Assembly (NCBI GenBank): GCA_963930775.1
Contig: OZ005692.1
Coordinates: 6,558,135 to 6,622,134, forward strand
Reading direction: 5' to 3'
Length of the DNA: 64,000 nucleotides
Source: Cliona cf. orientalis
Lineage: Eukaryota; Porifera; Demospongiae; Clionaida; Clionaidae
Shown here: piece after piece, positions 17,191 through 63,055 of the stretch
Numbering within the stretch: position 1 is the first letter of the stretch
Layout: each line of letters begins with the position of its first letter
Position numbers and translations under genes: made by a program
The notes under the pieces: model-generated
What the model saw: only the letters and a program-made list of their open reading frames with translations
The model's database searches: none
What the model was told of the DNA's origin: nothing

Positions 17191-20100
17191 ATGGCTTTCC
17201 AGTGGAAATTTGCTGCCGTGTTGGCTGTTGTGGTCATCTGTTTTTACCAGGCACAGTGTAAGCACCTGCAGATTTTGAAGTGATATAATATTATTATTAT
17301 AATATTATGATATGATGATGTAATAAAATCTGATTTGATAGGTCAAAGTTGCACTGAAGGAGATATTCGTTTGGCAAATGGTGCCAACCAGTATGAAGGT
17401 CGAGTAGAAGTCTGCCATAACAACGTGTGGGGCACTGTCTGTGATGATGGCTTCAGTAGATTGGACAGTGCAGTGGTTTGCAGGCAGCTAGGATTTGCTT
17501 ATGCAGGTCTGTACTCTAGCTCTAACTAGAAAATTTTCCCAGAGTAAGTTTTGGCAAGGCCAATTTTGCTACCTCCTCTGATTGCAAGACAAAATTGTTT
17601 TGTCCAGTGCATATATAGATAATAAAATAATTATTATGGTACTCGAGTTTCATCACATTAATTTAAATGAAATTTGGCATGTTTCTGTAATGCAAAGATT
17701 TTGGTAAAATGGTTATCCAGCAAAAAATTTCAGCTATATATAATAGCTCACTGACTGTGAAGGGATTGATTAGTAAATTGCCTATAACTTTCTAATTCCA
17801 TACCCATCTTTAGTGAAGGTGGTATTTATTTTGACTGACATATATACATAGTATGGAAAGTGGAATAAGGAGCATTGCAATATTGTGATGGTTAACTAGC
17901 TAGTCTAGTACTTAATTATTACGTATAATATTATTATGGCACTGTAATTATTGTGTAATAGTGTTACATTTTTCTGTTTATGCTTCATGGCATGACAATA
18001 ATATTATTATGATACACTGCAAAACCTTTGTGGTACATGTATGGTGCATGTGTCATACGTATCGTATCAAAAGCCCCCAAAGAGTTTTGCACATGCACAA
18101 TATATGCAGATTGCGCATATCAAACAATTGTGTATCGTAGCTAGATCGTGAACTGAGGATCGATTATCAAACATTTCTAAATAAAGCCTCAAAAAGTGAT
18201 AAGGCCATGGCCTTACCAGCCTTATAGGCTCCAATGGCCTTGAGAAGAGGTCGTTGTGAGCTGTTGCTGCTGCTATGCTTACATGTACATGTATGTACAC
18301 TACCATAATTTGCGACTTTTTCACTGTTAAATGTTTTGTGCAAAGTAGTTTACCTGCACTAACTTATGCAGTGAATATGATATAAATATTATGGCACGTG
18401 TTTAATATTGATGAAAATATTGTGGCACGAAAGTTTCTTGCACAAACATTTTGCAATTGAAATTACAGTATGCAAAATTTGAATGGGGGGAGGGGGGTGG
18501 GGTGGGGGAGACAGCTACTGTGGATTTCAGCTCACTTCAGTTTTGCAAAAACAATCCCAAATTGTACTTAGGTAAACTCTACAACAAACCACACCAAGAC
18601 TAATAGGTGTAGTAATCTGTTCTTTTTCTTCTTTGCACATTATCGCATGTTCCAAGTGAGCTGCAAAGGAAGAGAGAGGGTGCATGGTGATCAATTTCCC
18701 CACTTGGCCCTATGAACCATCTATGATCTGGTTAAATGATGCATTCCTCATCACTGCAGGAGCTAGTACACCCACCCGGGCTTTCTTTGGTGCGGGAACT
18801 GGACAGATCTGGCTGGATGATGTTGCATGCACAGGAACTGAAGCCAGACTAGTAAACTGTAGAAGTCGAGGCTTTGGTGTACACAACTGTAATCACAATG
18901 AGGATGTCGGAGTGAGGTGCATACCCGAATTCTGTAAGTTGGCAGGAATTGTATTTTAATTATATTGAATGTTTATAAGATACTAAAATGTATGGATTCA
19001 TAAATAATATTATAGCTAACAACTGTTAGTTAAGTAGCCTAAATAAATGGTGCGTGATTACTAATGTCATGTCCTCATTCCACTATGAAAAAAGAACCTG
19101 TATTACCACTCTGTGTGCTGGTACACTATGAATAATAAAGATATTCTTAATGTTCATGTTGTACGTGTTGGACTATTTTATGTGTATCACAAAACTCATG
19201 CATAATATGATTGGCTCGGAAACATTACTTTCTCATCTATCATTGCTGCATGGCTAATTACCCCAACTTTATGACATTGTGTATGCACATGATATGTTAT
19301 CATGATCAAGAAGCCTTGCTACAAACAGCAATCAAGGTAGACTCCAAAGACCAAAGTGTACGTAGGTGTTGACCATCATTTGGATATTTGACCGTGCACG
19401 TTTCACTATCAATTCTCCTGCGGCATGACCATTAGTAATGCATGCACACAGTTGAATTTACATACCAGCCACATTCTGTAGAGAAATGAACATTTTTACT
19501 TACTAGACTGCACTGATGGAGATATCAGACTGGTTGATGGAACTAATGAACTGGAAGGACGTGTGGAAGTCTGTTTCAATGGAACATGGGGCACTGTGTG
19601 TGACGATTTTTGGAGTGGGCAAGATGCTACCGTTGCGTGCAGACAATTGGGATTTTCTCCAATAGGTGCACTTTGCTATGTACATCATAATAAAAATAGA
19701 CTATAGCATTTAGTTACCCCGCGCGCATGCGCAAGGGGTAAAGTAATCGGTCGTGTCGTCGTCGTTGTTGTTAGCACAAAAATCGCCATATCTCGAGATA
19801 CAGGTGTCTAAGTGACTCTTAAGCACAACGAATCAATCGAATTCGGCGAAAAACTGGCTTCAGTATGCGTCAAATCGAGGGATACGGTCCACGAGCGTCA
19901 CAAATAGTGCCTTTTTGTTGGCCACCGTGGCCACGCCTATCGACAGTGCCCACAATGCATATGCATACTGCTTTCTGCTCATGCGCACAACTAACGTATG
20001 ACTGGTAAAGATCGTCAATGTTCTAAATAATGCTCGTGATGTCTACAGTGACTGAAATCTGAAGCCAATCATAATGTAAGATAGCTATACTACAACAAAT

Positions 20101-62600: not shown

Positions 62601-63055
62601 GTGATTGTGACCAAGAAGGATGAGAAGCTGATAAAGCCTGACGATGACATCAACATCGGCCAAGAGGTTGAGGTGGATCTGGTGTCTCAGGATGACCGCT
62701 ACTCCATTGCCGTGGTCGAGAACCCTCTCTATGCTGAAGCCGAGCATGAGAATGCTGTCTCCTACCACAAGCCTGGTGCTGATGAAGACGGAGATGAAGA
62801 GGAGGTCAAGGTACATCAACTTTTATGAGACAGATCCCCTTTTGCTTTAGTTGTATTGATAATTCTTTCAATTTCGTTAATTGGGGTGCATGAGATATAT
62901 GGTCGAATGCACCATAATTATTAAGGTCTTGCAATTATTGTAGATATATTATGACTAATAAATTGCTGTACAGGTTACTATTATTGTCATTATTGTAGAT
63001 TGACTATGATGATTATGGAGATGATGATCATGAGGATGCTTTCACTTACACTTGA
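44687..63055 (+). CDS. SRCR receptor gene B: 23 SRCR, 2 Ig-like, FN3-like, TM, NPxY tail
   Basis: The complete tandem paralogue of gene A. I assign 53 exons with GT/AG borders; they sum to 9,624 nt, exactly 3,208 codons with the stop (3,207 residues). Exon 1, 44687-44756, encodes the signal peptide ([20 protein letters not shown]). Then come 46 half-domain exons for 23 SRCR domains in three units (listed separately), the last of which, 59634-60452, also holds both Ig-like domains. After it: 60722-60891, 61236-61588, 61657-61777, 62202-62347 (transmembrane), 62588-62810 and 62999-63055 (acidic end [17 protein letters not shown]). Introns are mostly 60-400 bases. The product is a type I membrane protein, by analogy with sponge multi-SRCR proteins probably used in adhesion, self-recognition or microbial binding; no ligand can be read from the sequence. 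Confidence 0.9.
44815..49776 (+). other. Gene B SRCR unit 1: domains I-VIII
   Basis: I 44815-44979/45074-45247; II 45456-45614/45755-45934; III 46003-46167/46485-46676; IV 46873-47040/47120-47305; V 47468-47632/47707-47877; VI 47953-48114/48184-48351; VII 48707-48865/49033-49209; VIII 49282-49446/49597-49776. Each matches the like-numbered type of gene A. SRCR V has WATIC where most copies have WGTIC. Introns are short; one MITE (46213-46423) splits domain III. Confidence 0.85.
46213..46423. mobile_element. Decayed MITE, CCGTATAGCGGGAAA family
   Basis: Left TACCATAAAGTTGGAAACTTT and right CTCGAATGTTCCCCGCTATACAG still align with the ends of 8665-8875, and the interior keeps GGCATGCCCCA. It has more mismatches than the other copies, so it looks older. 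It is one of the few transposons inside gene B. Confidence 0.65.
49988..55262 (+). other. Gene B SRCR unit 2: domains I-VIII
   Basis: I 49988-50149/50222-50395; II 50769-50927/51292-51468; III 51542-51706/51961-52146; IV 52246-52413/52472-52657; V 52769-52933/53080-53253; VI 53427-53588/53642-53806; VII 54040-54198/54290-54466; VIII 54535-54696/55083-55262. The order is the same as in unit 1. The second exon of VIII ([11 protein letters not shown]) shows that this unit is complete. Domain IV and its intron closely match unit 3. Confidence 0.85.
55558..59820 (+). other. Gene B SRCR unit 3: domains I-VII
   Basis: I 55558-55719/55803-55976; II 56200-56358/56896-57072; III 57310-57474/57728-57913; IV 57983-58150/58225-58410; V 58471-58641/58706-58876; VI 58939-59100/59165-59332; VII 59414-59572/start of 59634-60452. 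Type VIII is absent and VII runs straight into the Ig-like region, as in gene A. The type VI first exon opens ECQSGAIRL where the other copies read GCTNGAIRL, so its acceptor region has been altered while the cysteine is kept. Confidence 0.85.
59634..63055 (+). other. Gene B C-terminal module: Ig, Ig, FN3-like, Cys-rich, TM, tail
   Basis: Ig-like 1 starts [11 protein letters not shown] (about residue 2638); Ig-like 2 shows [11 protein letters not shown] ... GNYQCTTTN. The FN3-like domain runs from APSVPAPMI to [16 protein letters not shown]. The cysteine-rich module keeps [21 protein letters not shown] and KKCINDWI at the same spacing as gene A. The stalk REPSSGTAP precedes a helix of I/V/L/G/A (about residues 3079-3105) and KKRKDK. 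The tail repeats the gene A pattern: [21 protein letters not shown] (NPxY at about 3160-3163), [16 protein letters not shown], then a separate acidic last exon. Confidence 0.85.
62540..62584. repeat. (TCTA/TCTG)n microsatellite at a splice acceptor
   Basis: About eleven tetranucleotide units run up to the acceptor CTGTAG at 62582-62587, so the microsatellite provides the pyrimidine tract for the cytoplasmic-tail exon of gene B (62588-62810). Length changes could affect splicing of that exon. Confidence 0.8.

Follow-up and report, generated by a model that had tools for sequence, protein, structure and literature searches.

An eight-domain SRCR super-repeat common to two tandem receptor-like genes of the sponge Cliona cf. 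orientalis

Are giant tandem arrays of SRCR domains extended domain by domain or in larger ordered blocks, and what might such arrays do? The question is raised by a stretch of 64,000 nucleotides (nt) of the sponge Cliona cf. orientalis (assembly GCA_963930775.1, contig OZ005692.1, positions 6,558,135 to 6,622,134, forward strand), hereafter the window. In its initial annotation, two neighbouring genes, A and B, were proposed to hold 38 SRCR domains of eight types (I-VIII) recurring in one fixed order. Our analysis recovered this eight-domain unit, or octamer, in both genes, and we consider it likely that A and B are giant membrane receptors extended by octamers and later reshuffled.

Two SRCR arrays with one octameric order

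SRCR half-domain profiles, trained on the window itself and run over all six of its frames, located 38 N-terminal (N) and 38 C-terminal (C) halves in strict alternation, all on the plus strand, between positions 17350 and 59809. No SRCR half was found by these profiles on either strand in the rest of the 64-kb window, and a third paralogue considered for its first 17 kb was rejected as that region holds none. Each half is a separate exon, giving two exons per domain in 38/38 domains. A phase-1 GT-AG solution with an open frame exists for 76/76 half-domain exons and joins them into two frames of 15 and 23 domains; phase 1 was imposed during splice-site choice, and the result is one of consistency, namely that such a solution exists for every exon. 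Domain membership is supported by Pfam family PF00530, which matches the spliced type III domain B19, the one of the 38 for which a score is given, at 89.4 bits (cut-off 26.1), and the C-half exons in both immunoglobulin (Ig) frames at 33.3 bits each. Genes A and B lie in tandem on the plus strand, and the annotated interval proved to run from the ATG of A (17191) to the stop codon of B (63055).

Domain order is I-VIII, I-VII in gene A and I-VIII, I-VIII, I-VII in gene B. We refer to these successive units as A1 and A2, and B1 to B3. The annotated types, their order and the counts of 15 and 23 were confirmed. As annotated, both arrays end at type VII fused to an Ig region: in both genes the second VII exon continues without an intron into two Ig domains. 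An unlabelled tree of the 38 domains gives one clade per type (support 99-100/96-99), like types clustering across genes and units rather than by gene or position, as the annotation had expected. Placing the type labels on this tree requires seven changes, the minimum possible, against a mean of 27.4 for shuffled labels, and the nearest neighbour is of the same type for 38/38 domains.

The period is also apparent in pairwise comparisons. At lag 8, domains have a mean identity of 0.68 in A and 0.76 in B, and at lag 16 one of 0.72 in B, against 0.43-0.50 for other lags; between the genes the mean is 0.71 for domains in register and 0.45-0.48 for those out of register. Of 20,000 within-gene shuffles, 0 reached the lag-8 mean observed (0.74), the highest giving 0.58. 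An octamer composed of two tetramers was rejected, lag 4 not being elevated (0.43 in A, 0.47 in B). The period of about 880 residues first put forward is too short, since the measured spacing is 906-913 residues over 22 pairs. Clustering on raw identity, cut at eight groups, does not recover the eight types: average linkage joins I with IV and complete linkage joins II with IV, both splitting V (adjusted Rand 0.79), and single linkage reaches an adjusted Rand of 0.33. The eight types consequently rest on the tree.

History of the units

The fixed order common to both genes implies that copying took whole octamers of sixteen exons or kept to the octamer register. To this extent the proposed duplication in sixteen-exon blocks holds, whereas repeated doubling of intact blocks fails for some of the type trees. 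Synonymous differences (pS) between copies average 0.36-0.73 over pairs in 15/16 half-exons, and the ratio of nonsynonymous to synonymous change (dN/dS) is 0.11-0.25 in 16/16. Such values mark the copies as old and show purifying selection on each type.

Unit relationships were examined with bootstrapped five-unit DNA trees for types I-VII, type VIII, present in three copies, being left out. A1 pairs with B1 for types I (99%), VII (94.5%) and IV (77%), A2 with B3 for VII (90.5%) and V (64%), B2 with B3 for I (97.5%) and II (74%), and B2 with B1 for V (100%). For type IV, B2 with B3 reaches only 49%, tied with A2 and B3, though the DNA of the two type IV domains concerned, B12 and B20, is 96% identical. 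The type VI tree is weakly supported. Such conflicting pairings point to exchange or conversion between units at a later time. If a two-unit ancestor gave rise to A and B, with B later acquiring another unit and exchange continuing, most of the type trees would be explained, and no single event would account for all of them. In particular, one unequal crossover between IV and V was rejected as the whole history of gene B: it fits type V and type I, and B1 with B2 is found in 5.5% of replicates for VII and 37% for VI.

Alignments obtained with blastn pass through short introns across several exons, and intron homology was for a time considered as proof of block copying. This argument was dropped once the introns beside five N-exons had been aligned alone: 4/100 pairs were similar at p <= 0.01, about one being expected, with the clearest match in the mid-domain intron of type IV between B2 and B3. 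Since introns have mostly lost any recognisable likeness between units, block copying is argued from the shared order and not from the introns. Other non-coding repeats of 75-86% identity lie out of octamer register (19708-20312 with 30238-30869, 29223-29635 with 41199-41530, 27281-27351 with 63931-64000, and 43379-43457 with 56412-56490) and are probably interspersed mobile elements.

A uniform exon and a second super-repeat

Among the sixteen half-exons, VI.N is the outlier, with a mean pS of 0.19 beside 0.66 for its partner exon VI.C. Over the ten pairs of its five copies DNA identity is 92%, the ungapped flanks reaching 31-33%, and in each of the five copies similarity stops near or right at the exon borders; in gapped alignment the flanking introns are similar in 0/20 pairs. 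Identity declines toward the 3' end of the exon. VII.N (pS 0.36) and IV.N (0.44) tend the same way. Where copies encode the same residue, they use the same codon in 413/466 cases for VI.N, 307/407 for VII.N, 300/439 for IV.N, 213/364 for II.N and 55/101 for VIII.C, a comparison covering 5/16 half-exons, as the copies of the other 11 differ in length. The simplest mechanism suggested by this pattern is gene conversion reaching only as far as homology does, i.e., the exon edge. A uniform exon whose introns and partner exon have diverged offers a way of testing for conversion in receptor arrays.

A scan of prokaryote species genomes with exon IV.N yielded 35 loci, 30 of which are matched by the half-domain profiles; the profiles gave no match in the other five (L018, L024, L027, L034, L035). 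Outside one bin with LWTN01 contigs, the 26 matched loci each contain at least one open frame with both halves, as expected of bacterial genes. These loci (L001-L008, L010, L012, L014-L017, L020-L023, L025, L026, L028-L033) come from bins of Myxococcota, Binatia, Deltaproteobacteria, Dadabacteria and others, with up to seven SRCR per locus (L002). The remaining four (L009, L011, L013, L019) belong to the bin "Cycloclasticus sp. symbiont of Poecilosclerida sp. M", in which halves are mostly split, three frames spanning both. This bin holds 94 SRCR matches over seven contigs, and a phase-1 GT-AG solution, with the phase imposed, exists for 44/44 of its domains with both halves (median intron 60 nt). 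Its SRCR contigs probably derive from the host sponge and were binned together with the symbiont; PMC6474228 describes Cycloclasticus in Poecilosclerida hosts. An orthologue of the Ig part was not found in the bin, 16/16 matches falling in residues 6-74 of the 293-residue query, i.e., its SRCR part and a few residues. Two scans of viral contigs confirmed no relatives.

Like the window genes, two contigs of this bin carry two-exon SRCR domains in an ordered super-repeat. With type labels assigned by eye from the peptides, the N-halves of LWTN01000219.1 read alpha-beta-epsilon2-gamma-delta-epsilon-zeta twice, then alpha-beta-gamma-delta-epsilon-zeta twice, and those of LWTN01000180.1 beta to zeta, alpha to zeta, alpha. 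The period is thus six, and seven in the first two units of LWTN01000219.1. In the hexameric parts N-half identity at lag 6 is 0.73 and 0.72, a mean reached by 0/20,000 shuffles; lag 3 (0.57, 0.55) and, in one contig, lag 9 (0.62) are also raised because beta and epsilon share sequence. N-half trees place alpha, gamma and zeta in one group each and not beta, delta or epsilon; with both halves beta also forms one group, delta and epsilon still not. The nearest neighbour carries the same label in 37/48 cases. The octamer itself was sought in this second array and rejected: its halves show no specific match to types I-VIII and its types group otherwise. When both sets, 80 domains together, were placed in one tree, no type was nested inside a type from the other set, though gamma and zeta branch among the types of the window (90/87). 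Judged from these trees, the second array and the octamer are different super-repeats, probably of independent origin.

The second array also contains homogenised N-exons. Its alpha N-exon has a mean DNA identity of 90% over seven copies (0.69-1.00), while the partner exon stands at 53% over five copies and the ungapped flanks at 27-30%; about 95 nt are common to the beta and epsilon exons. In gapped alignment, 7/21 upstream and 0/10 downstream alpha-flank pairs are similar at p <= 0.01, so the exon boundary is less clean than in the window. Joins in the LWTN contigs call for caution, as an assembler can go astray where identical exons exceed the length of short reads. These observations bear on another explanation of the uniformity of VI.N, namely constraint on synonymous sites, for instance through a splicing or other RNA signal. 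The loss of similarity close to or at the exon borders of every copy, like the dissimilar flanking introns, would fit such a constraint. Against it, synonymous sites vary freely in other N-half exons of the same fold, alpha copies are up to 100% identical at the DNA level and the beta/epsilon tract looks copied. We regard constraint as possible but the less likely of the two, gene conversion being preferred.

Taken further, SRCR super-repeats may be the way in which sponges assemble giant receptors of immune type, with octamers in this lineage and hexamers or heptamers in another; one or two N-half exons per super-repeat, kept uniform by largely exon-limited conversion, would anchor in-register exchange while their C-half partners diversify the ligand face. 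This proposal is tentative, and the weak similarity of 7/21 alpha upstream pairs makes it slightly less probable. If true, it would give animals that lack adaptive immunity a modular means of making receptors larger and more diverse. A period of eight here beside a differently composed six or seven in sponge-like contigs would mean that such receptor building arose more than once.

Receptor architecture, rival explanations and gene models

Eight cysteines occur with near-constant spacing in 38/38 domains: the six core residues, placed by alignment with solved SRCR structures, one before the first strand and one in the motif VEVC. The same two extra cysteines are present in 48/48 N-halves of the second array. 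Group B SRCR domains (the WC1/CD163 type) are encoded by one exon each, as opposed to two here. Aligned with CD163, the window domains also fall outside group B by their cysteines, since those that CD163 has in addition sit ahead of its GR motif and behind QLG. For sponges, PMC10855680 describes a "Group C" that has seven conserved cysteines, unlike group B, and suggests that the extra one is free for polymer formation; the domains studied here have eight, and the N-terminal one may fall outside the domain limits used there. The constancy of the two extra cysteines suggests an intradomain bond and calls into question whether the extra cysteine of sponges would be available for intermolecular bonds, as proposed. 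Of 48 cases in the loci outside the LWTN01 bin, 24 have neither extra cysteine, 11 the N-terminal one only, three both and none the second only, ten being unmatched by the pattern; as a test of pairing this is suggestive and no proof.

Cation site 2 of SALSA consists of D1019, D1020 and E1086 according to PMC7043408. By residue offset it corresponds to the pair DD that follows the third cysteine and to the glutamate of H-x-E-D; a glutamate in the motif C-x-G-x-E, considered earlier, was wrong by the published residue numbers and was replaced. The site is complete in 4/5 type I, 2/5 type II, 5/5 type IV and 2/5 type VI domains and in 0/18 domains of types III, V, VII and VIII, i.e., 13/20 against 0/18 (Fisher p = 1.6e-5, the groups having been picked after the pattern was seen). 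In type VII, arginine occupies the first and third positions of the site in 5/5 domains (26938-28069 and the other four), which by its sequence would be a constant charge reversal replacing the first D and the E. With five unit copies, eight paralogous domain types and two genes, the type-specific pattern predicts which domains bind ligand and which do not.

Beyond the arrays, Ig_3 matches two stretches per gene and the Ig assignment is firm. The region that follows is FN3-like at best: fn3_2 was matched in one frame only (E 0.094, 13.3 bits, cut-off 27), and the spliced A and B proteins gave no FN3 family at E up to 1 in Pfam. Sushi/CCP gave no match at E up to 1 in the C-terminal region of either gene. 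The tails of A and B are acidic, conserved between the genes and share DRYS[VI]AVV[DE]NP[IL]Y, whose NPxY we take to be an endocytic or PTB-type tail motif, with a function predicted from the motif. Gene B is complete and, judged by eye, starts with a signal-peptide-like sequence. For the final exon of gene A, the search produced candidates only.

The annotation also held that an octameric higher-order SRCR period shared by two neighbouring genes was, as far as known, undescribed, which is too strong. Mammalian WC1, with the domain order a-b-c-d-e-d-b-c-d-e-d', already has a repeated five-domain SRCR cassette, as described in PMC2906472. As in WC1/CD163, ordered SRCR cassettes are here repeated within a receptor and common to a tandem family, with a membrane anchor and tyrosine-based tail motifs. 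Unlike in WC1, the period is eight rather than five and the cysteine positions differ. The likeness is one of organisation, not descent. Members of the WC1/CD163 family are not known to have Ig domains. In Amphimedon queenslandica, according to PMC10855680, the SRCR superfamily is large, with many tandem genes and a cysteine beyond the six core ones, the replication unit is one or two domains and most domains have three exons; the window has an eight-domain unit, two exons per domain and eight cysteines. The LWTN contigs differ from the window genes in their period, in types outside clades I-VIII and in that no Ig part was found in the bin. Ordered higher-order super-repeats are also found in titin and nebulin, giant intracellular muscle proteins made of other modules. 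The multi-SRCR putative aggregation receptor of Geodia cydonium is reportedly a sponge transmembrane protein with many SRCR, as here, and with SCR/CCP repeats, for which the window genes gave no Sushi match. In the open-licence literature, screened mostly by title and opening of the abstract, we recognised no report of an SRCR octamer, and no paper came up on SRCR super-repeats or on unequal crossing over of tandem SRCR domains. New here are the octamer with its Ig and transmembrane context, the six- or seven-domain super-repeat in sponge-like contigs, and the near-uniform VI.N beside diverged introns and partner exon.

The explanation that we favour, and hold to be likely, is that A and B, as tandem paralogues, both encode giant scavenger or pattern-recognition receptors with type-I membrane topology. 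Whole octamers would be gained or lost through in-register unequal exchange, since one intron phase serves for joining all sixteen exons, and later exchange or conversion would have made B2 a mosaic. Types I and IV, with some II and VI, are predicted to bind ligand via a bridging cation, each octamer displaying the same spaced set of cation-competent and cation-lacking heads, such that more octamers would give greater reach and avidity. Captured microbes or particles might then be internalised or signalled via the NPxY tail, and VI.N would be kept uniform by gene conversion halting where unrelated introns start. Several observations weigh against this explanation. Type III shows an odd unit pairing, A2 with B2 at 83.5% and B1 with B3 at 75.5%; intron homology between units is nearly absent; the cation-site groups were chosen post hoc; and in types II and VI only two of five domains each have the full site.

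Its main rival is that A and B are mainly adhesion or aggregation receptors, their SRCR and Ig domains making cell-cell or cell-matrix contacts rather than capturing microbes, a role of the kind that has been proposed for the Geodia multi-SRCR protein. The Ig domains next to the membrane and the very long ectodomain are in its favour, and sponge SRCR arrays have been linked to aggregation; the lack of a Sushi/CCP match in both C-terminal regions, unlike what is reported for the Geodia protein, speaks against it. We give this rival roughly a one-in-four standing, well behind the scavenger-receptor explanation. That the order persists merely because the duplications are recent, the types having no separate functions, is improbable. 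The near-identical B12 and B20, with mid-domain introns that still align, would agree with recent copying, but low synonymous divergence across most unit pairs, looked for as its expected sign, was not seen, most half-exons having the pS and dN/dS values given above; introns are almost all unrecognisable between units, and site residues differ by type constantly. Least probable by far is an assembly artefact of collapsed or mis-joined repeats: long repetitive genes are difficult to assemble, but 76/76 half-domain exons have an intact open frame, the units are distinct along their whole length, each unit has introns of its own, and A and B match at their 5' and 3' ends.

Table 1. Gene models, units and exons of the two SRCR genes (positions in the window)
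Feature	Position	Strand	Remarks
Gene A	17191..40842	+	36 exons resolved, 2272 residues: 15 SRCR, two Ig, membrane-proximal region, hydrophobic segment, acidic tail
Gene A exon 1	17191..17257	+	Starts at ATG 17191; signal-peptide-like (judged by eye)
Gene A unit 1, SRCR I-VIII	17342..29854	+	16 exons
Exon VI.N, A unit 1	24927..25088	+	Homogenised exon
Gene A unit 2, SRCR I-VII	31049..37751	+	Last half inside exon 37576-38370
Exon VI.N, A unit 2	36162..36323	+	
Gene A exon, SRCR VII second half and two Ig	37576..38370	+	Pfam Ig_3 2.1e-16, frame 37569-38462
Gene A membrane-proximal region, three exons	38970..40097	+	FN3-like at best; exon-by-exon alignment with gene B
Gene A hydrophobic (transmembrane-like) exon	40410..40570	+	Sequence only; segment judged by eye
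Gene A acidic tail exon	40644..40842	+	NPxY motif
Gene B	44687..63055	+	53 exons, 3205 residues, ATG to stop; 23 SRCR, two Ig
Gene B end regions after Ig	within 44687..63055	+	Membrane-proximal region, hydrophobic segment, acidic tail
Gene B unit 1, SRCR I-VIII	44815..49776	+	
Exon VI.N, B unit 1	47953..48114	+	
Gene B unit 2, SRCR I-VIII	49988..55262	+	Mosaic relationships
Exon VI.N, B unit 2	53427..53588	+	
Gene B unit 3, SRCR I-VII	55558..59809	+	Last half inside exon 59634-60452
Exon VI.N, B unit 3	58939..59100	+	
Gene B exon, SRCR VII second half and two Ig	59634..60452	+	Pfam Ig_3 1.3e-16, frame 59612-60493
Gene B membrane-proximal region, three exons	60722..61777	+	FN3-like at best
Gene B hydrophobic (transmembrane-like) exon	62202..62347	+	Segment judged by eye
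Gene B tail, two exons	62588..63055	+	62588-62810, 62999-63055; NPxY motif

Other features of the window were noted in passing. Two long open frames on the minus strand (831-2405 and 2546-3484), the first with several hydrophobic stretches, gave no Pfam match at E up to 0.1. Frame 63671-63916 bears by eye an unconfirmed likeness to the start of a protein kinase and gave no Pfam match at E up to 1. In an intron of gene A, a near-perfect inverted repeat seen by eye at 38780-38900 is possibly a small mobile element.

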